DNA from: a virus
DNA: 21,550 nt
Direction: 5' to 3' (one strand)
IMG/VR virus record: IMGVR_UViG_3300025301_000144
Coordinates: 1-21,550 of that record
The notes below the pieces were generated by a model that saw only the letters and a program-made list of their open reading frames with translations, made no database searches and was not told the origin of the DNA. Both the position numbers and the translations under genes were made by a program. Numbering within the stretch: the first letter of the stretch is position 1; the number at the start of each line of letters is the position of its first letter. Below, piece after piece: positions 1,780-15,683 of the stretch.

Positions 1780-3029
1780 TATTCGTTATACTCATCATAA
1801 ATTTCTTGTACTCTAGCTGTAGGTTCCCAAGGCAACTCTGGTCCATGCATAACATATCTACCAAAAAAATCTCTTGGGCCTAAAGGAATCCCAGATTCAG
1901 ATTGCCCATGAAATTCAGCTTCTTTTCTCAACTCGGCTTTTAAATCCTCAAATTCCAAAGGATAATCCAAGTTAAAATAGTCATCACTTAGCGCTGTATG
2001 TGCCTGAAGTGTTTTAGCATACGGGCTACCATACCATTTATCCATTTGTTCATGAATACTCCAATCTCCATATTCTTCTGGTAGTAATTGATTCATAATA
2101 AATTCGTAATCTTTTAATAACTCATTATCATATAAAAATCTATAAAATTCTACATATTCATCAGAAAACCTAGTTTCTTGTTGATTACCATACCAATCAG
2201 CCCAATCTCTTATTCTGTCTCCACTTACACCTTTTTCCCAATTACTGCCTTTAGACAATTCAAACAATTTACCATAAGCATCATGACTCTGGTCTTCTAG
2301 ACTAGACATATGAAGAGATCCAGTTCCGTGTCCAAATATCTCATGAGTAAGTATTTCAATAGGATCAGCAGCCCACCTATAGGTCTGGCTTGTGGAATCA
2401 GGAGTTGGTAAAGGTAAAGCAGCATACGCAGTATCAACAAGACTTCCCCCCAAACCATAACCGTACTGTCCTATTGATTTTCCAGCCCAGTTTTCTGTTC
2501 CTACTTCCCATTTGCCTGATCCTGCTTCAAATCCTGGAGGAACAGCTCTTATAAACATATTACCAGCTTGTAATTTTGGCAATAACACATCAGTAAAAGG
2601 AGTTTCTTTAAATTGTTCGTAATGTCTTGGATCAATTCCAATCTCTGATTTGATTCTGTCCAACTCCTTTCTGTTGGTCCGTCTTGCAAATAATTTTTCT
2701 TCTTCACTCCAACCAGCTTCTTCTTCTTCTATAGCCTTATCTATTGCGCCTTTTTCTGGCATAATCTGAGATAAAATTTTATCTAGTTCTGGGGCATGAA
2801 ATTCAAGTAATGCTGCTAATTGTCTAGATACAGATTCACTGGTTTTAGCCCATTCAGCAACCTCTTCCTCTGACATAGCAGATAATGATTCTGGTAAAGT
2901 TTTAAGAAAATCTAATTCTTCTGTGACATCTCCCTCAAATCCTTCAAAAGTTGGTATACGTCCTTCGCTACTAGCTCCAGAATATTTTAACCAATTCCAA
3001 TAATCTTGATATTCTTTACTTAACGGCAC
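1779..3029 (-). CDS. Putative HEXXGH (DPP III/M49-like) zinc metallopeptidase
   Basis: The 416-residue protein carries HEIFGHGTG at residues 229-235 onward. The three-residue spacing between Glu and the second His is not the common HEXXH. It is the HEXXGH form known from dipeptidyl peptidase III (family M49). About 45 residues later QQETRFSDE could supply the third zinc ligand, as the EECRAE motif does in M49. The N-terminal 110 residues are acidic and Glu-rich and may be disordered. The start is GTG, directly after the TAG of the upstream gene, with AGGA about nine bases before it. It lies between the terminase genes in the late operon, which suggests a role in head maturation, a virion-associated peptidase, or entry. 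The fold is inferred only from the motif. It could instead be an inactive structural relative. Confidence 0.55.
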   Translation of the reverse strand: MPLSKEYQDYWNWLKYSGASSEGRIPTFEGFEGDVTEELDFLKTLPESLSAMSEEEVAEWAKTSESVSRQLAALLEFHAPELDKILSQIMPEKGAIDKAIEEEEAGWSEEEKLFARRTNRKELDRIKSEIGIDPRHYEQFKETPFTDVLLPKLQAGNMFIRAVPPGFEAGSGKWEVGTENWAGKSIGQYGYGLGGSLVDTAYAALPLPTPDSTSQTYRWAADPIEILTHEIFGHGTGSLHMSSLEDQSHDAYGKLFELSKGSNWEKGVSGDRIRDWADWYGNQQETRFSDEYVEFYRFLYDNELLKDYEFIMNQLLPEEYGDWSIHEQMDKWYGSPYAKTLQAHTALSDDYFNLDYPLEFEDLKAELRKEAEFHGQSESGIPLGPRDFFGRYVMHGPELPWEPTARVQEIYDEYNE

Positions 3030-3536
3030 CTAGAATCCTGGTAATTCTTCAAATGGATCTGGTAGTGGATATCTTTCTAAAGTTCCTGAACCTTCGGGAG
3101 CAACAATATCAGATGGATCAGGAGAGGGTTTAATTCTTCTGTTTCCAAATTCATCCACAATTGTGTCTAATACTTCTACCTCCACATCTGCATATCCCCC
3201 TCCTCTAGGGCCGCCATATCCAGGTACAGGTTTAAAATATCCTTTAAATAGCATTTCTAAAAGAGTAGGATTTATAGGAGGTCTATTCCCCATATCCCCG
3301 CCTTCTAAGGCTTTTTGTATCAACATATCTTGATAATCTGTCACAGCTCTATCAGATTCTTCTTGAGATATTTCTGTAACCCCACGATATAAATCAAATT
3401 CTTCTTTATGTTCTTGCATTCTTTTTGCCATCTCAATAGCTTCAAGTTGAGAAATTCTTCCTCGTATATAATCTAATACATCCACATTCTGTTTCTGTCC
3501 TAAAGCCCTTCTATAATCTTCTAAAGTTATATCCAT
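3030..3536 (-). CDS. Hypothetical late protein, Pro/Gly-rich C-terminal half
   Basis: This 168-residue protein has no recognised domain. The N-terminal 80 residues are predicted helical and charged, with a Lys/Glu-rich segment. The C-terminal half is rich in Gly and Pro (GYGGPRGGGY, then many Asp-Pro turns) and is probably extended. The start has a good ribosome binding site (AGAGGAA) a few bases upstream. It follows the small terminase by one base and is followed at once by the GTG of the metallopeptidase gene, so it belongs to the packaging and late operon. A head-assembly or minor virion role is possible but only by location. Confidence 0.75.
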   Translation of the reverse strand: MDITLEDYRRALGQKQNVDVLDYIRGRISQLEAIEMAKRMQEHKEEFDLYRGVTEISQEESDRAVTDYQDMLIQKALEGGDMGNRPPINPTLLEMLFKGYFKPVPGYGGPRGGGYADVEVEVLDTIVDEFGNRRIKPSPDPSDIVAPEGSGTLERYPLPDPFEELPGF

Positions 3537-7799: not shown

Positions 7800-8051
7800 A
7801 TGCCTAGAGACGAAGCAATAACAATTAGAGAGTTTAATGGCTCATCATTTGAAGAGACAAGAACTCATGCATCAACAGTTGGTGAATATAGAGAAGAAAA
7901 AGGTCTTGGAGCTGATGTAACTATATCTGTTGATACTGTTAACCAACCTGATACCTTTGAATTAGAAGCAACTGATCCAGCAATGGCTGTAGCTGCTGTT
8001 CGTAGTAATAAAACTGGCGGTAGTGTTGATTTGCTTATAACAATCAAATAG
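7800..8051 (+). CDS. Putative ubiquitin-like (beta-grasp) protein modifier
   Basis: An 83-residue protein proposed to be the modifier that E1 activates and E2 transfers. The residue pattern resembles the ThiS/MoaD/ubiquitin beta-grasp: strands at 6-12 and 16-23, a helix at 26-36, strands at 39-47 and 52-56, then 'DPAMAVAAVRSNKTGG', like the 'DGDEV.IV...GG' end of ThiS. Gly73-Gly74 is followed by nine more residues (SVDLLITIK), which would need removal to expose the reactive glycine; the JAMM protein two genes on could do this. The ATG follows GAAAGGGG. Similarity is weak by eye and much of the assignment rests on the E1, E2 and JAMM neighbours. An alternative is a beta-strand protein whose last strand is that tail. 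Confidence 0.6.
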   Translation: MPRDEAITIREFNGSSFEETRTHASTVGEYREEKGLGADVTISVDTVNQPDTFELEATDPAMAVAAVRSNKTGGSVDLLITIK

Positions 8052-8070
8052 TTTGGTATCGAGGAGAGAC

Positions 8071-8122
8071 ATAGAGAGCCAATAACTGTAGCCAGCAATT
8101 GGTGTTATGTGAGGCTCTCTAT
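8071..8122 (+). other. Hairpin between modifier and E2-like genes
   Basis: ATAGAGAGCC (8071-8080) pairs perfectly with GGCTCTCTAT (8113-8122). The helix continues with ATAAC (8082-8086) and GTTAT (8104-8108), and a small CCA/TGG hairpin sits at the tip. It ends nine bases before the AAAGGAGG site of the E2-like gene and may set relative expression of modifier and E2 by RNA processing. Confidence 0.6.
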
Positions 8123-8145
8123 AAATTTAAAGAAAGGAGGACTAT

Positions 8146-9993
8146 ATGTCTGTAAATGTATTAACTCTTGATGGGTTAACAAATAGAAAATTAAAAACAA
8201 TAGCAGAAAATGTTATTATGGGTCCACAAGCTACTATATTATCACAATTAAATAATATTAATGGTAATCATAATTTAAGTCTAGGAGTGACTAAAACATT
8301 TAGATGGTCTCCTGGTATTTATGATCAAATAAAAGAGAGAATACATCATTATAATGGATTTAATATGAGTAATTCTGGTATGCGTCATTTGTTTAGAAGA
8401 ATCAAAGAAAATAATCGTTATTGGAAAAGAGATTTGGAATCTAAGGTAATAGAATTAGAAGGATCTTTACAAGGTTTAAGAGCTGCAGGTTCTATATGGC
8501 AAGATAATACTGATACAGTTTTTGATATTTTTACATTAATGAAAGAGCAAATACAAGAAACTTATGAATCTATTAATGATGATGTTCAAATTAGTTATGA
8601 TATATTAGAACAAGTAGATGAAGATAACAATATTGCACATAAAGGTTATAGAATAAGATTTATAATTGAATATAACAATATAGATGTTCATATGTGGTCT
8701 TCAACTAAAAGATATTTAGGAGAAGTTCCTACAGGAAGAATAACATTAAATATCCAAATGGATTTAGTTAAAGCATTAAATGTATTGTCATCAAAAAAGA
8801 ATATGTTATTTGACATTGAAACTTTGCCATCTTATTTTACTGGTGAAGGAAGAGCCTTTATAATGAAAGCTTTGTATAATAATGGTGTAGGAATACATCA
8901 TCCTTTTATAGGAAGTCGATTTGCGAGGCTTAATGATAGAATTGATCTTAATAATTTTTATTATCCAGCATATTGTTCGGAAACTGCAAATCAAGGGTGG
9001 CGCAATGTATGTGTAGGAGATATGGGAAGTGATATTGCTTTAAAATGTATAAATTTTAATTTAAATGAATTAAATACTAAATTAAAAGAATGGTTGTCTA
9101 ATTTTATAGTTACTCGTACTCATCCATTAAATCCTTTTAGTCGATGGTTTCATGGATGGCCTAAATGGTTAAAAGATAACAAGGAATTAGATGGTATTAT
9201 GGGACATATTCAAAATTCACGTACTTGTAATAATTCTTTATCTATTGTTGAGTATGCAGAATCAGCCAAACGTAGTGAAGATGAACTTGTTAAGCTTCTT
9301 CGTATGAATGATATACAATTTCGTATTGATTATTGTAATTCTGTTGAGTGTCAATTGAGAGATAATTGTATAACTTACAGTATACATGGTAATCCTGATT
9401 ATACTTATCAACAAGAACAATTGATGGTTGAGTTATCTGTTATACTATTTGCTCCATTAGAACTTGTTCATGAAGCATATTCTAATGAATCTGTTGATAA
9501 TTTACATTCAATTATTAAAGCTGAATCTACATGGGATAGAACAAAGCAAATAAAGCAAATAATAAAATTAGAATCTATATTGTATCCTGATAAGATTTTT
9601 GCAGACGAACTATCATATTTACACAAAACAAGTAAAGATTTATGGTCAGGGCGTGCACTAGAAGATTTAATATTCAGTCTTGAAGAGGCAGTATATAATA
9701 ATAAAGACAAAAAAGATGTTGTTAAAGAAAATAATGATAAATCTATGATTAAAACACTTCAAAATAGAATGGGTATGATTCCAACTATATCCCCTAATCC
9801 TAACGCTAATCAACCACAAGGTGATCGCGAACAAGATCATGTAGAATCAACTTTTTATTCATTAAATAGTGAAGAGTCCGCTGATTTTGAAATACTTTCA
9901 GATCCTGATGATGAAATGCATGATGAAGAATGGGAAGCATATCAAAGAGACATGGATGAAAATCCAGAACCAGATAACTTAGAGGAGGAATAA
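8146..9993 (+). CDS. Large protein with putative E2 (ubiquitin-conjugating-like) domain
   Basis: A 615-residue protein proposed to accept the modifier on a cysteine and pass it to a target. Near the middle it has His252-Pro253-Phe254-Ile255 and then WRNVCVGDMG with Cys289. This resembles the HPN(I)...G(N)(I/V)CL core of E2 enzymes and of bacterial E2-like proteins. The distance between the two (about 33 residues) exceeds that of a eukaryotic E2, implying a loop insertion. Strand-rich residues 165-220 could be the preceding sheet. The first 165 residues are helical; residues 340-520 are helical with Cys397-x4-Cys402-x5-Cys408, a possible metal site; the tail is acidic and disordered. AAAGGAGG precedes the ATG. 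Order (after Ubl, before JAMM and E1) supports the call. Nothing else I know has this whole architecture. Confidence 0.65.
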   Translation: MSVNVLTLDGLTNRKLKTIAENVIMGPQATILSQLNNINGNHNLSLGVTKTFRWSPGIYDQIKERIHHYNGFNMSNSGMRHLFRRIKENNRYWKRDLESKVIELEGSLQGLRAAGSIWQDNTDTVFDIFTLMKEQIQETYESINDDVQISYDILEQVDEDNNIAHKGYRIRFIIEYNNIDVHMWSSTKRYLGEVPTGRITLNIQMDLVKALNVLSSKKNMLFDIETLPSYFTGEGRAFIMKALYNNGVGIHHPFIGSRFARLNDRIDLNNFYYPAYCSETANQGWRNVCVGDMGSDIALKCINFNLNELNTKLKEWLSNFIVTRTHPLNPFSRWFHGWPKWLKDNKELDGIMGHIQNSRTCNNSLSIVEYAESAKRSEDELVKLLRMNDIQFRIDYCNSVECQLRDNCITYSIHGNPDYTYQQEQLMVELSVILFAPLELVHEAYSNESVDNLHSIIKAESTWDRTKQIKQIIKLESILYPDKIFADELSYLHKTSKDLWSGRALEDLIFSLEEAVYNNKDKKDVVKENNDKSMIKTLQNRMGMIPTISPNPNANQPQGDREQDHVESTFYSLNSEESADFEILSDPDDEMHDEEWEAYQRDMDENPEPDNLEEE

Positions 9994-9995
9994 AT

Positions 9996-10919
9996 ATGGA
10001 CGATGCAATATTCTCTATTAAAGAGAAAACATTTGACAAAATACTAAACTATGCACATTGTGCTAAAAATGAATTTAAGTCAGAAATTGGTGGAATGTGT
10101 GTAATATTAAAAGATAATGATGGGAATTATGAATTAATAGATCCAGTAATTTTAAAACAAACAATTAGTGGTGGAAATTGTGATTTAGATAAAGATGAAT
10201 TAGCTGTATATTATACTAAAGTTGATCAGAAATATAATAAATATGATTATACATTCTGTTGGTGGCATAGTCATCATACAATGGGAGCATTTTGGAGTAA
10301 AACTGATACAGATACTATGGAAGAAGCTTCTGATAGTAATATAAGTTATTCTTTAGTAGTCAGCTGGAATGAAGATCCATATGGACATATATTTAGAGTT
10401 TCATATTGGAAGCCAGTTGTATATGCAAAAGATATAAAACTTGAGATTATTCATAAGAGAGAAAAGAAAATTCCTAAATCTATTATGAAAGAAGTTGAAG
10501 AAAAATGTTCCAGCCCAATACCAACTAATTCTAAGTATGCAAATAATTTGATGCTTAAAAATCCTAATACAGGATATTCATATTATAGACGAGGATATCA
10601 AAGTAATTTATTTAATACTAATACTTATAATTTAGATCCCACTGCGACATATGGTGTAATACTTGATTTAGTTGATAAATTAATGAATAAATTAATTAAT
10701 GGTACATTAGTATATCATGATTATGTGGCTGAAATTGATGAAATTAATGAGCAATTAGGAGAAGATAATCCTATTTCCGTTACTAAAGAGGCTAAGGCTA
10801 CTATTGATAGGATATTAATTAATACTGCTAGTGATTATGTTGAGTATGATTTAACAAAAGATGATGATGAAATGGATGATATGGAAGCTATTAATACTAT
10901 AGAAGGGAATTGGCAATGA
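9996..10919 (+). CDS. JAMM/MPN metallopeptidase (deubiquitinase-like)
   Basis: A zinc isopeptidase or peptidase expected to trim the modifier and/or remove it from targets. The N-terminal 140 residues carry the complete JAMM motif: Glu30 (in SEIGGM), then His91-Ser-His93, seven residues, Ser101-x2-Asp104. Residues 150-307 form a C-terminal extension of unknown fold, including a Tyr/Arg-rich patch (GYSYYRRGYQ) and an acidic last 25 residues, perhaps for binding the modifier or E2. The start follows AGGAGGAA and lies two bases after the E2-like stop. Its stop overlaps the E1 start. JAMM domains also occur in phage tail proteins, but those pair with an NlpC domain, absent here. Confidence 0.93.
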   Translation: MDDAIFSIKEKTFDKILNYAHCAKNEFKSEIGGMCVILKDNDGNYELIDPVILKQTISGGNCDLDKDELAVYYTKVDQKYNKYDYTFCWWHSHHTMGAFWSKTDTDTMEEASDSNISYSLVVSWNEDPYGHIFRVSYWKPVVYAKDIKLEIIHKREKKIPKSIMKEVEEKCSSPIPTNSKYANNLMLKNPNTGYSYYRRGYQSNLFNTNTYNLDPTATYGVILDLVDKLMNKLINGTLVYHDYVAEIDEINEQLGEDNPISVTKEAKATIDRILINTASDYVEYDLTKDDDEMDDMEAINTIEGNWQ

Positions 10920-11587
10920 TAATAACTAGATTTAAAGATATAGTAGATAGTATGCATAAATATACATTTCATATACTTGGTTGCGGAGCCATTGGGAGCT
11001 CCGTAGCCACTCAATTAGCTAGAAGTGGAGCTGAAAAGTTTGTATTATATGATATGGATAAAGTAGATGTAGAAAATATAGGGGTATCTCAATATCTTGA
11101 AGAAGATATAGGTAAAGATAAAGTATATGCATTAGCCGAGCAATTAAAATCTATTAATTTATCTACAAATATAACAACATGTTATGGGGAGTTTAGCTAT
11201 GATTTATGGAGTCCTGATCTTCAAAAGAAAGATATAGTTATATTAGGATTTGATTCAATGTCTGCAAGGTTAGAAGCTGTAAGAATAGTATGTAATGATG
11301 CAAGCTTTAAACCTCTATTTATAATAGATGGTAGAATGGGAGCTGAACATTATCAACAATATACAATAAAGAACCCAACAGTTAGAGAATATAAAGGCAC
11401 TTGGTATAGTGATGAAGAAGGTTCTACAGAGCCTTGCAATGCTAAAGCTACCAGTTATTGTTCTAATATGAGTGGAAGTTTTATAGTTAACACTATAAGA
11501 AAATTGATTACTAATCAACCATATCATAAAAAATTGAACTTTCATTTTCCAACCATGAATTTGGATAAAAGTAAAATGATAGTTTAA
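10916..11587 (+). CDS. ThiF/E1-like modifier-activating enzyme
   Basis: An adenylating enzyme expected to use ATP to activate the modifier's C-terminal glycine. The Rossmann site is GCGAIG (Gly22-Gly27), followed by Asp46-x-Asp48...Asn54 and Gln59, Lys69 after DIGKD, and Asp113 with Arg118 (GFDSMSAR). Cys174 in 'EPCNAKATSYC' is the best candidate for a thioester cysteine. The arginine of the usual NLxRQ element is replaced (GVSQ). No CxxC zinc pairs and no C-terminal ubiquitin-fold domain are present, so it is a minimal form of 223 residues. The ATG at 10916 is preferred to TTG at 10910 because it forms an ATGA overlap with the JAMM gene and AGAAGGGA is well spaced. Confidence 0.92.
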   Translation: MIITRFKDIVDSMHKYTFHILGCGAIGSSVATQLARSGAEKFVLYDMDKVDVENIGVSQYLEEDIGKDKVYALAEQLKSINLSTNITTCYGEFSYDLWSPDLQKKDIVILGFDSMSARLEAVRIVCNDASFKPLFIIDGRMGAEHYQQYTIKNPTVREYKGTWYSDEEGSTEPCNAKATSYCSNMSGSFIVNTIRKLITNQPYHKKLNFHFPTMNLDKSKMIV

Positions 11588-11598
11588 TGACATGTCAT
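11587..11598. repeat. 12-bp perfect palindrome at the E1 stop codon
   Basis: ATGACATGTCAT is its own reverse complement and begins on the last base of the E1 stop. Too short to form a stable RNA hairpin, it is more like a protein binding site. Its position at the operon end is the only clue. Confidence 0.5.
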
Positions 11599-11605
11599 AT
11601 AGAGT

Positions 11606-11638
11606 GAGGGGTTTTTCTTGGACATGGTTAAGCCCCTC
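11606..11638 (+). terminator. Strong hairpin after the ubiquitin-like operon
   Basis: GAGGGGTTT (11606-11614) pairs with AAGCCCCTC (11630-11638), nine pairs with one G-T wobble, 19 bases after the E1 stop. It is followed by TCCTCCTAAATTT and lacks a long T-run. It is likely the operon's terminator or an RNA-stabilising 3' end. Confidence 0.55.
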
Positions 11639-11654
11639 TCCTCCTAAATTTGGC

Positions 11655-11715
11655 TGGCATACCCAAAGCAAGAGTTTAGCTTAATCTGATAGAGAACCGA
11701 TGCAATTGTATGCCA
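11655..11715 (+). other. Stem-closed structured element
   Basis: TGGCATAC (11655-11662) pairs perfectly with GTATGCCA (11708-11715), and outer AAATTT blocks can extend the stem. An inner AAGC/GCTT hairpin and the motif TAGAGAACCG (11690-11699), shared with 6148-6157, lie inside. Possibly a small RNA or leader related to the 6136-6213 element. Confidence 0.4.
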
Positions 11716-11764
11716 AAAATTTATATAAAAAAAGCTTGGTGAATTTAAATAAGTTACGTAAATT

Positions 11765-12060
11765 CTAATCCAATATTCAATAAAATGCCCTGTACGACGG
11801 GGTAATATGTGAATCTATATGGATGTAAACATTGATTTTTGATAGTGACTAAGATATTAATATATATATTAACTAATTTTTTTTAAACCTTGAGTTTTCC
11901 TATCTAGAAAGCTATGATTTGTTTATGAAAATTTTAAGTGCACAATATATTAACAATTAAGGGATCTATGTGTATTCATACGAGAATTAACAAGTTAACA
12001 TCTAGCCGTTAAAAGCGGGATATAGTTATACGAACGCTATATGAAATAGTCCGAGAGGAT
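11765..12060 (+). ncRNA. Group I intron-like core (tentative)
   Basis: GACTA (11847-11851) and a distant ATAGTCC (12046-12052) can form the five-pair P7 helix, and 'GAAATAGTCC' resembles the conserved 3' core sequence of group I introns. Directly before it ATATAG (12020-12025) pairs with CTATAT (12037-12042), in the place of P8. GATATT after GACTA can pair with AATATT near 11772, in the place of P3, followed by an A-rich joining segment. P4-P6 are not convincing and no interrupted gene is visible, so this could be a degenerate intron, another ribozyme, or coincidence. Confidence 0.25.
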
Positions 12061-12120
12061 CAACGAATATGGCTACAAGTCACAGGGCATTATATTCAAA
12101 CAATAACGTAGGAGGGAAGT

Positions 12121-12885
12121 ATGAAAACTTTATATTTTGATTTAGAGCATGGAAGTAAAACTTTAGGTTCTAAAGATGCAATAAAGACAATGTTTGGCTA
12201 TCCTGTATTACATCCTTATACTTGGGATCAATTTCTCAAGATTATAGGTGGTATATACAAACAAGACAAAGTAGTAGTCACGCAAAAAATAGGAGACTTA
12301 GAAGTATCTCATGAAGATCAACAAGTCACCTTAAAAAATGGTACTATAGTTGACGCATTAGTAGTTGACACAGTATCAGAACTCTGTAAAAAATACCAAA
12401 GAAGTTTATGTGATAAAAATGGTGTCATGAAGCTTCAAGATTGGGGGAGGCTGAAAAACAAAATCGATACAGCCTTAGAGTTTATAACTAGGATACCAGG
12501 TATAGTTATCTGTACCTCTCATTCAAAAATGAGCACAATGGACGATGGAACAACTAAAATACAACCATATATAGATGGATCTAGTAAAGAAGACTTATCT
12601 AAATGGTTTGATTTTGTGTTCTACTCAAAAACTATTATCAATCCTAGTGGAAAGAGGGAATATATTTGGGTAACTGAAAGAAGTGAAATGTACAACGATG
12701 CTAAAGATCGAACAGGACTTCTAGATGCTCAAATACCTCAAGACTATCAATTGGTAATTGATGCTGCTAACAATAAAGGATTTGAAGGTGCTAAAATACT
12801 TATCATCGGATCTCCTGGTAGTGGTAAAACATATAGTCTACAAACTCTAAATAAGGAGGTGTCGAATGCGAACACTAACGATTAA
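12121..12885 (+). CDS. Sak4/AAA_24-type RecA-fold ATPase, apparently circularly permuted
   Basis: This 254-residue protein resembles phage nucleotide-binding ATPases of the Sak4/AAA_24 type, which work with phage SSB proteins in recombination. In those proteins Walker A is N-terminal. Here the protein starts with the segment that normally follows Walker A (TLYFDLEHGSKTLG), continues with Walker B (DALVVDTVSEL, Asp83), 'LQDWGRL', and the usual C-terminal 'IPQDYQLVIDAANNKGF', and only then has Walker A, GSPGSGKT (Gly230-Thr237), 17 residues before the end. The start is firm: GGAGGG precedes the ATG and an in-frame stop lies at 12109-12111. The end overlaps the SSB-like gene. Sequence order is plain; the permutation interpretation rests on recalled family order. 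Confidence 0.8.
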   Translation: MKTLYFDLEHGSKTLGSKDAIKTMFGYPVLHPYTWDQFLKIIGGIYKQDKVVVTQKIGDLEVSHEDQQVTLKNGTIVDALVVDTVSELCKKYQRSLCDKNGVMKLQDWGRLKNKIDTALEFITRIPGIVICTSHSKMSTMDDGTTKIQPYIDGSSKEDLSKWFDFVFYSKTIINPSGKREYIWVTERSEMYNDAKDRTGLLDAQIPQDYQLVIDAANNKGFEGAKILIIGSPGSGKTYSLQTLNKEVSNANTND

Positions 12886-13414
12886 AAAGAATAGTGGATC
12901 TAAATTTTCTCCAGGTTGGAAACAAGTGGAGATAATTAAAGCAGTATATGGGGACTATAATGGTACCAAATACGTAGATTGCTATTTCAAGGATTATCCT
13001 GACTCACTTAACCTAAGAATCTATGCTAAAGAGGGCGCAAATGGAGAGGAATTTGCTATAGGCAGATTATTCCGATTTGCAAATGCTGGCATAACTGAAG
13101 TGCTTAATGGTGCTAATGGTGAAAGTGTAGTTAAGATAGATGATAGTCCTGCTAGTTTAATTGGTAAACATATCAATGTATACTTTTACAAAGATGGAGA
13201 ATACAGTAGAATATTATCTTCTGTAGCTCCAACTGAGTTTAAGAATGAGATTGAAGAGTTTTCAGATGATGATATTAGTTACTGGAAACAACAATCTGAA
13301 AAATATTACAAGAAATATGTCGTTAAAGACGAAGAAGATAGTGGAGAAGCAACATTTCCATTTACATCTAATACTGAGAATACTAGCGACGATAGTGATG
13401 GATTACCAATCTAA
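12866..13414 (+). CDS. Putative single-stranded DNA-binding protein
   Basis: A 182-residue protein with a strand-rich N-terminal 130 residues and an acidic, Ser-rich tail ending DDSDGLPI, close to the acidic-hydrophobic tip by which bacterial SSB recruits partners. Phage SSB-like proteins commonly sit beside Sak4-type ATPases, as here. An AAGGAGG site lies inside the ATPase gene, and the two genes overlap by 20 bases. The OB fold is inferred from pattern and context only; I do not recognise a specific family. Confidence 0.6.
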   Translation: MRTLTIKKNSGSKFSPGWKQVEIIKAVYGDYNGTKYVDCYFKDYPDSLNLRIYAKEGANGEEFAIGRLFRFANAGITEVLNGANGESVVKIDDSPASLIGKHINVYFYKDGEYSRILSSVAPTEFKNEIEEFSDDDISYWKQQSEKYYKKYVVKDEEDSGEATFPFTSNTENTSDDSDGLPI

Positions 13415-13433
13415 TATCACATAAAGATCACTG

Positions 13434-13497
13434 ACACCTATCATCAATTCCGAATCAGGAGAGGCGAGTCCGTGTAAGACAAGCTGTTGATAGGTGT
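13434..13497 (+). other. Stem-closed leader element before the Cys-rich small protein
   Basis: ACACCTATCA (13434-13443) pairs perfectly with TGATAGGTGT (13488-13497) and encloses 44 bases. It ends 26 bases before the next ATG. It has the same layout as the elements at 7032-7111 and 8071-8122, though the enclosed sequences differ. Confidence 0.5.
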
Positions 13498-13523
13498 TAT
13501 ATCAATTAAAGAAAGGAGAGAAT

Positions 13524-13913: not shown

Positions 13914-15683
13914 ATGATTAAAGAATTTGCTTTTGGATTGTCTAATAGATGTCATTTCCAAGAAGCATCAAGAGCTGGAGAATGGATGGGACTAGATAGG
14001 GATACATTTGTTTCTTTATATGATTATGATAATAATGTTATCAATTATGTACAAAAGAAAGGCAAATTAGCTGGGTATGATGGGCCTATATATATGCCTG
14101 ATGAATTTATATTAGACGTAGATGGAACTAATCCAATAAATGCACGAAACAAATTATTGGGATTAATGATTATACTAGATGATGCAAATTTAGCATACAA
14201 AATATATTTTAGTGGTACTGGATTTCATGTTGGTATCCACTCATCAGCATTTAGATGGCAGCCATGTGATGATTTACATATTAAAGTCAAGAAAGAGTTG
14301 ACGTCTAAAGGTATATTTGAATACGCTGATCCAGCTGTAACTGATAAAACTAGAATTATTAGACTAGTAAATACCAGAAATAGCAAATCCAATCTATGGA
14401 AAGTAGAAATAGATCCCATATTAAATATATTAGAGAAAGATGATAAAGATTTTGTTCGAGAAATAGAACAATACGCATCTAAACCTCAAAAAGTCTCTAA
14501 TGATGATATAGAATGTAATGTAGTATTTGATGTATTAGGAGCAAGTCAGCCAACATCGCACACACTGACTGAGGAGCCTGTCCTATCAAAAGGAAGACAA
14601 CCAGACCCAATGAACTATCCATGTATTCAAAGAATGTTGTATGGTTCTGTAATTGGAAGTAGACATCTGGTAGCTTTAAGATTAGCTGCTTGGATGAGAT
14701 GGTTATATCCAGAAGATACTGTTAGATTGTTAATGAATGACTGGAGAAAAAGAGTAGACAATCCAGACAAACCTTTTAAACAAAAAGAAATAGATACAAT
14801 TATTGATAATTGTTATGATGGTCACGATGGTAGTGGCTATAGATATGGATGTCATGATATAGTTATGGATAAACATTGTCAAAATACTTGCAGATTGTTT
14901 AAATCTAAAAAATCACAAAATACAATGAATGCTGAAATGATGGAAAAAGAAATGATTGAATTTTATAAAAGAAATTTAAATCCAATTAATTTTAGTGAAA
15001 TCTATAATAATTGCAATTTCCCTGTCTATCCAGGTGAAGTTGTTATCTTACAGGCTCCTCCAGCTTCTATGAAAACAATGTTATTACAAAATCTAATGGT
15101 TCTATTTAAACGTCCCACTTATTTTATAGAGATGGAAATGTCTCCAAGACAAATATGGTCTAGATTTGCTATGATAGATAAAGGTTGGACAGAAGAACAA
15201 TTAATAGCGCATTATAAAGAATATAATAATGGTTTAAGCCAAAGTTTTGATTGGTTAACTGTAGACTTTGCATCGCTATATACGCATGAATTAGAAAAAA
15301 GAATAACTACCCTACCTGTTAAGCCAGAAATAGTAGTTGTTGACCATATGGGCCTATTTAGGAGCAAACAGCGTGATCATAACATGAAAGTTGAGGAAGC
15401 TTCACAGGCTTTGATGGAATTAGCAGTAAAACATCAAGTAATAGTATTTACAGTTAGTGAGATCAGTAAACAAGCTATGGTAGAAGGTATGAATATAGCA
15501 TCTTCCAGAGGTTCTTTCAGAGTTGCTTATAATGCAAATAAGATATTATCATTAAAACCTTTCAAAAATGATCAAGGTGAAATTAAAATGTTGCAGCTTG
15601 TAAGCGATAAGAATAGAGAACGTGAAACTTTAAACATAAAACTAGGAATAGATAATGTAAGGATGGTTCCGTATGAAGAATAA
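13914..15683 (+). CDS. Primase-helicase: AEP-type primase fused to a DnaB/RecA-like ATPase
   Basis: A 589-residue replication protein that should unwind DNA and lay primers. The N-terminal domain has archaeo-eukaryotic primase features: DVD with Asp68 and Asp70, SGTGFHVGIH with His105, and Asp139 before 'RIIRL'. A middle Cys-rich segment (YPC..., YGC..., HCQNTC) between residues 235 and 330 looks like the metal-binding PriCT-type region of such fusions. The C-terminal domain is RecA-like with Walker B VVVDH (Asp477). Its Walker A, QAPPASMKT with Lys387, lacks the usual Gly before Lys, so ATP binding may differ. It follows the SSB-like gene in the replication block. Confidence 0.85.
   Translation: MIKEFAFGLSNRCHFQEASRAGEWMGLDRDTFVSLYDYDNNVINYVQKKGKLAGYDGPIYMPDEFILDVDGTNPINARNKLLGLMIILDDANLAYKIYFSGTGFHVGIHSSAFRWQPCDDLHIKVKKELTSKGIFEYADPAVTDKTRIIRLVNTRNSKSNLWKVEIDPILNILEKDDKDFVREIEQYASKPQKVSNDDIECNVVFDVLGASQPTSHTLTEEPVLSKGRQPDPMNYPCIQRMLYGSVIGSRHLVALRLAAWMRWLYPEDTVRLLMNDWRKRVDNPDKPFKQKEIDTIIDNCYDGHDGSGYRYGCHDIVMDKHCQNTCRLFKSKKSQNTMNAEMMEKEMIEFYKRNLNPINFSEIYNNCNFPVYPGEVVILQAPPASMKTMLLQNLMVLFKRPTYFIEMEMSPRQIWSRFAMIDKGWTEEQLIAHYKEYNNGLSQSFDWLTVDFASLYTHELEKRITTLPVKPEIVVVDHMGLFRSKQRDHNMKVEEASQALMELAVKHQVIVFTVSEISKQAMVEGMNIASSRGSFRVAYNANKILSLKPFKNDQGEIKMLQLVSDKNRERETLNIKLGIDNVRMVPYEE

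Follow-up and report, generated by a model that had tools for sequence, protein, structure and literature searches.

A naturally permuted Sak4-like ATPase with its Walker A motif at the C-terminus, most likely a single-strand annealing protein of tailed phages

Sak4 proteins and other phage annealases are well known, and what is new in the protein described here is its permuted order. The Sak4 of phage HK620 both binds and anneals single-stranded DNA in an ATP-dependent manner, its annealing being stimulated by the cognate single-stranded DNA-binding protein (SSB) (PMC5928155), and the Sak4 of PA73 retained weak recombineering after mutation of its Walker A motif (PMC5928155), so ATP use and function may be loosely coupled. 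In the solved structure of phage 52A Sak4 (8rc5), an ATP analogue is held by Lys41 and Thr42 of one protomer and by Lys229, Arg231 and His232 of the next (PMC11846896), and these ATP-contacting residues were confirmed in the 52A sequence. Among P-loop proteins of other classes, the GTPases of the YRG/YlqF family and cpRAS are naturally circularly permuted and still functional (PMC2430557). The open-access literature, a scope that does not take in most subscription journals or bioRxiv preprints, was found to contain no mention of a permuted Sak4 or RecA-family recombinase. P-loop ATPase cores are rarely circularly permuted in nature, and we know of no permuted core of the RecA/Rad51 class.

The window analysed is the whole 21,550-nucleotide stretch of IMG/VR record IMGVR_UViG_3300025301_000144, a 21.55-kb virus contig that carries terminase, lysozyme, primase-helicase and RusA/PDDEXK-type genes and is therefore considered a tailed-phage fragment; all genes of the window given below, and their parts, lie on the plus strand. 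The open reading frame at 12121-12885 encodes a protein of 254 residues, designated cpSak4 and assigned from profile, alignment and structure-prediction evidence as a circularly permuted Sak4. Direct reading agreed with the layout given in the initial annotation, with FDLEHG at the start (residues 6-11, in the N-terminus MKTLYFDLEHG), a Walker B aspartate at position 83 (within DALVVDTVSEL) and GSPGSGKT towards the end, the C-terminal end being AKILIIGSPGSGKTYSLQTLNKEVSNANTND. By alignment and structure prediction, the second core strand (residues 3-11, 12127-12153) opens the chain as the new N-terminus (YFDLEHG) and carries the invariant Glu9, which aligns with the glutamate of "AE.G" in ordinary Sak4, the counterpart of the catalytic glutamate of RecA. 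Walker B (DTVSE, residues 83-87, 12367-12381), with Asp83 at 12367-12369, was placed by alignment, and AKDR occupies residues 194-197 (12700-12711). Core strand 1 (residues 224-230, 12790-12810; DSSP strand E224-230 of the predicted structure) is now C-terminal and runs into Walker A (GSPGSGKT, residues 230-237, 12808-12831; read directly and placed by alignment and model), which is followed by helix A (238-248). Across 46 aligned members, the Walker A motif (G230, P232, G233, G235, K236 and T237), the catalytic glutamate (E9), the Walker B aspartate (D83) and the C-terminal Lys/Arg pair including R197 are all invariant, as are the rest of AKDR (194-197) and a PYIDG stretch (P149, D152 and G153); some members carry tails of up to about 70 residues at their termini.

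Membership of the AAA_24/Sak4 family, which had been proposed from the sequence alone, was borne out by profile searches, a rotation scan, the predicted structure and its match to a solved Sak4. In its native order, the protein matched Pfam AAA_24 (PF13479; E 1.9e-20, 74 bits against a cut-off of 27) and the Sak4-like phrog_124 (E 4.8e-25, 90 bits), and the AAA_24 and PHROG Sak4 matches were split, with residues 2-219 aligned to the profile beyond its P-loop and the C-terminal P-loop segment picked up as a separate match. When the C-terminal segment was placed first, AAA_24 gave one contiguous match (4-195 of 195, 80.9 bits versus 74) and phrog_124 likewise (103 bits versus 90), and a control rotation lowered both scores. 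For the rotation scan, the 46-sequence alignment was taken through all registers against 14 ordinary phage Sak4 proteins; the HMMER best-domain score, which discriminates between rotations better than the summed full-sequence score, peaked at residue 219 (278 bits versus 256 in native order), and the hhalign score rose from 114 to 159 (E 1.1e-16 to 1.2e-23) with a plateau at 214-222. Addition of 52A Sak4 to the ordinary profile gave 183.7 (E 1.1e-27) in one alignment from the P-loop to the last helix. The cut therefore corresponds to the site proposed earlier from a rotation at residue 222. The profiles, the scan, the model and the solved Sak4 upheld both its position, in the loop that links helix A to strand 2, and the direction of the shift, which places strand 1, the P-loop and helix A at the C-terminal end. 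After rotation, each invariant position of ordinary Sak4 (the Walker A GK, the Glu that follows strand 2, the Walker B Asp, a Gly and the Arg of AKDR) was matched by a position that is invariant in cpSak4. In ordinary Sak4, Walker A comes first (residues 12-26 in the 14 members, 35-42 in 52A); in cpSak4 it comes last, at 230-237, so that the usual motif order is rotated, and the protein is therefore a permuted variant and not an ordinary Sak4. Overall, cpSak4 and ordinary Sak4 are about 20% identical, and the cpSak4 members are far closer to one another than to any ordinary Sak4, consistent with a single permutation event.

Searches of PDB sequences with the native profile or with the rotated single sequence gave no RecA-family match, and a Foldseek search of the predicted structure against the PDB gave no significant match, as expected when a sequential aligner meets a permuted fold. 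When the weak Foldseek candidates were realigned, the structure comparison suggested earlier returned a RecA-like core, with 52A Sak4 (8rc5) ranked first (Z 12.6, 3.1 A over 167 residues) and Rad51 and its paralogues after it (Z 7.5-10.5). Residues 1 to 220 of the model aligned with residues 49 to 259 of the 8rc5 chain, starting just after the 52A Walker A (Lys41/Thr42). Alignment of the rotated family with the 52A profile set Walker A on Walker A and AKDR on TKIR, and Lys195 and Arg197 of cpSak4 therefore correspond to Lys229 and Arg231 of 52A Sak4.

The gene directly 3' of cpSak4 (12866-13414, overlapping its 3' end by 20 bases) encodes an SSB-like protein of 182 residues with a predicted OB fold, and it held this position in 258 of 258 loci, a set in which many entries are overlapping cuts of the same contigs and which contains 80 distinct cpSak4 sequences. 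Most of its relatives have a disordered acidic tail ending in IPF, IPW or LPF, and the copy in the window ends DDSDGLPI. The best solved match of the predicted fold was PrgE, a plasmid-encoded protein solved with DNA bound, at a moderate Z of 7.6, and bacterial SSBs scored lower. The family had no Pfam, NCBIfam or significant PHROG match, yet it combines the OB-fold prediction with SSB-type tails, and from these features it appears to be an unannotated phage SSB family. A primase-DnaB-type helicase, identified by profile matches (13914-15683), is a conserved neighbour that usually lies downstream in cpSak4 loci. Between the SSB-like gene and the following reading frame lies a hairpin (13431-13500) closed by a stem of about 12 bp; it matched no Rfam family and did not stand out clearly from shuffled sequences (z -1.7).

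Searches baited with the SSB-like protein or the primase-helicase recovered sister loci, and in 77 of them an ERF-family annealase occupied the slot of cpSak4 directly upstream of the SSB-like gene (three representatives tested matched PF04404 at E about 1e-23 and PHROG Erf-like at E down to 1e-40). cpSak4 and ERF occurred together in no locus examined, and no ordinary-order Sak4 was found in the annealase slot of the sister phages. Of the evidence on function, this exchange of ERF and cpSak4 at a single site is the strongest. In two further loci (L368, at 2953-3498, and L370), the gene upstream of the SSB-like gene belongs to a third family, phrog_11717 of unknown function, and by virtue of this slot it may be another annealase family. 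We are confident that cpSak4 is a circularly permuted Sak4 and hold it to be most likely the ATP-dependent single-strand annealing protein of the phage. It could instead be a mediator or regulator resembling the RecA/Rad51 paralogues, acting with the host recombinase or with the SSB and not annealing DNA itself. Sak4 is a core-only relative of RecA, as the Rad51 paralogues are, and the structures ranked after 8rc5 were Rad51 paralogue complexes and Rad51, but in sister phages that share the SSB-like protein and primase-helicase the place of cpSak4 is taken by an ERF annealase, none of the loci examined carries both, and HK620 Sak4 is itself an annealase (PMC5928155); this alternative is considered unlikely.

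Upstream of cpSak4, a conserved set of genes spans 7800-11587 and comprises an 83-residue protein (7800-8051), a 615-residue protein, a JAB-like metalloprotease homologue (9996-10919) and a ThiF/E1-like protein (10910-11587). The first two matched no family; the last two, the usual upstream neighbours by profile match and context, gave weak PRTRC-type matches, and the set resembles a cassette for ubiquitin-like modification in phages or one of PRTRC-like type. Where enough upstream sequence was available, the JAB and ThiF genes were present in 115 of 135 cpSak4 loci and 28 of 38 ERF loci. An insertion of about 307 bases without a long reading frame (11784-12091) separates ThiF from cpSak4 and is shared with near-identical contigs; it is absent from a relative (L004) whose cpSak4 is 92% identical. 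A group I intron was considered for the gap at 11587-12120 and rejected, as no Rfam match was obtained and comparison with this relative reduced the gap to the insertion, which lies outside the coding region.

The AlphaFold2 prediction made with the native alignment was a confident single domain (pLDDT 89.4, pTM 0.87), in which residues 224-230 form a strand directly before the P-loop (block-mean pLDDT 93-97), the last helix before it (209-218) is joined to strand 1 (from residue 224) by a linker of about 5 residues, and residues 248-254 form a flexible tail after the final helix (pLDDT under 50). From the strand assignment, the model confidence and the rotation results, strand 1 probably pairs within the core sheet, which makes it unlikely that the C-terminal P-loop lies outside the RecA sheet, the finding that the initial annotation had named as speaking against a permutation. 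A different arrangement of the permuted Sak4 would have the C-terminal P-loop swapped between subunits, completing the sheet of a neighbour in an obligate oligomer. Such a swap would suit the flexible tail, the position of both new termini between helix A and strand 2, and the filaments as which RecA-family proteins work; it is nevertheless judged very unlikely, as the lone chain is folded with high confidence and the linker of about 5 residues is too short for an easy swap.

The relocated segment taken alone weakly matches many P-loop families, as would be expected if it were an unrelated nucleotide-binding tail attached to a Sak4 that had lost its own P-loop. This reading is highly improbable against the observations that the segment ends where the N-terminus picks up the family profile, that positions 3-25 of the Sak4-like phrog_2872 match residues 224-246, that rotation yields the contiguous AAA_24/Sak4 match and the best scores, and that a core without strand 1 would miss the middle of its sheet.

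Proteins of the same order, which the initial annotation had proposed to look for, were sought in a single scan of IMG/VR, in which 113 stretches encoding relatives were found; the 80 that were kept span almost the whole query. These 80 distinct relatives are about 55-100% identical to the query, and in every one, all from other contigs, the C-terminal P-loop is the sole P-loop of the frame; over all fetched loci, a single C-terminal P-loop was present in 258 of 258 matches, which again represent the 80 distinct sequences. Because the permuted arrangement is kept in every relative found, cpSak4 is very probably functional rather than accidental. A lost N-terminus or an upstream frameshift was ruled out: the in-frame stop reported 12 bases upstream of the ATG was read directly (TAG at 12109-12111, in the interval 12109-12120, overlapping an AGGAGGG ribosome-binding site at 12110-12116), and in several relatives (L017, L018, L024 and L036) the stop-to-stop frame opens exactly at the homologous methionine, leaving no space for a lost N-terminus. 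The chance of an assembly or sequencing artefact or a miscalled gene boundary, for which nothing speaks beyond the caution of the initial annotation, is negligible given 80 distinct sequences on many independent contigs, in which the motif residues are invariant and the flanking genes conserved. No permuted-form relative was found among 50,697 GenBank phages, and none of any kind in about 85,000 cellular genomes, which therefore gave no host lead. By its numbers (TM-score 0.91-0.93 over 247 columns and 45% identity to cpSak4, from the BFVD model), UniProt A0A516LUR7 appears to be an already deposited member of the permuted family; as far as seen, it is a deposited sequence for which no description of the permutation was found.

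By the permutation, the N-terminal block of strand 1, P-loop and helix A would have become C-terminal, with the old Sak4 ends joined through a short linker and new ends opened in the loop that connects helix A to strand 2. An origin by tandem gene duplication followed by trimming is plausible; no intermediate with both N- and C-terminal P-loops was present among the 258 loci. The permuted chain would fold into an ordinary Sak4 core with a complete ATP site and, with ATP, would assemble on single-stranded DNA with the nucleotide between subunits, so placed that Lys195 and Arg197 of one subunit enter the ATP site of the next. cpSak4 would then anneal complementary strands together with the SSB-like protein from the next gene, and annealing would serve recombination-coupled replication alongside the primase-helicase. 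We infer ATPase activity, DNA binding, annealing and filament formation for cpSak4. Rad51-type filaments polymerise through a free arm, the segment that immediately precedes strand 1; in cpSak4 this segment is tied to the last helix, and both free ends are found at the ATP-site loop that joins helix A to strand 2. The permutation might conceivably alter assembly, either by creating a new subunit interface in this RecA-family annealase or by supplying termini that sense the nucleotide state or dock the SSB-like partner, a proposal that we regard as tentative.

As the permutation is conserved over a whole phage group, cpSak4 constitutes a natural experiment, which suggests that a RecA-type core tolerates its nucleotide-binding strand at the other end and which separates the needs of ATP use from those of filament assembly through an N-terminal arm. 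It also advises caution with order-dependent profile and structure searches, which split or under-score permuted proteins, as in the absence of a significant Foldseek match for a model that reached Z 12.6 on realignment.

Compared with known systems, cpSak4 resembles the ordinary Sak4 proteins of 52A (8rc5) and HK620 in being a RecA/Rad51-core ATPase that has every core motif as well as the Lys/Arg pair acting in trans. Next to 52A Sak4 comes a gene whose product ends DDDLPF, an acidic ...PF tail like those of the SSB-like family, and some ordinary phage Sak4 genes adjoin a gene annotated as SSB. It differs from ordinary Sak4 in that strand 1, Walker A and helix A are N-terminal there and C-terminal in cpSak4, and in a pair of strands between strand 2 and Walker B (residues 46-57 and 60-71) that stays largely unaligned when the family profile is aligned with that of ordinary Sak4 proteins. 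The ERF annealases (PF04404) share its slot upstream of the SSB-like protein and primase-helicase but form a separate protein family, and the ERF proteins of these loci match no P-loop family. With the permuted GTPases it shares natural permutation of a P-loop NTPase, whereas those proteins belong to the TRAFAC/RAS group, defined by GTPase G motifs, and are cut at other points; the profile and structure matches of cpSak4 are RecA/Rad51-type ATPases, the class in which it is placed.
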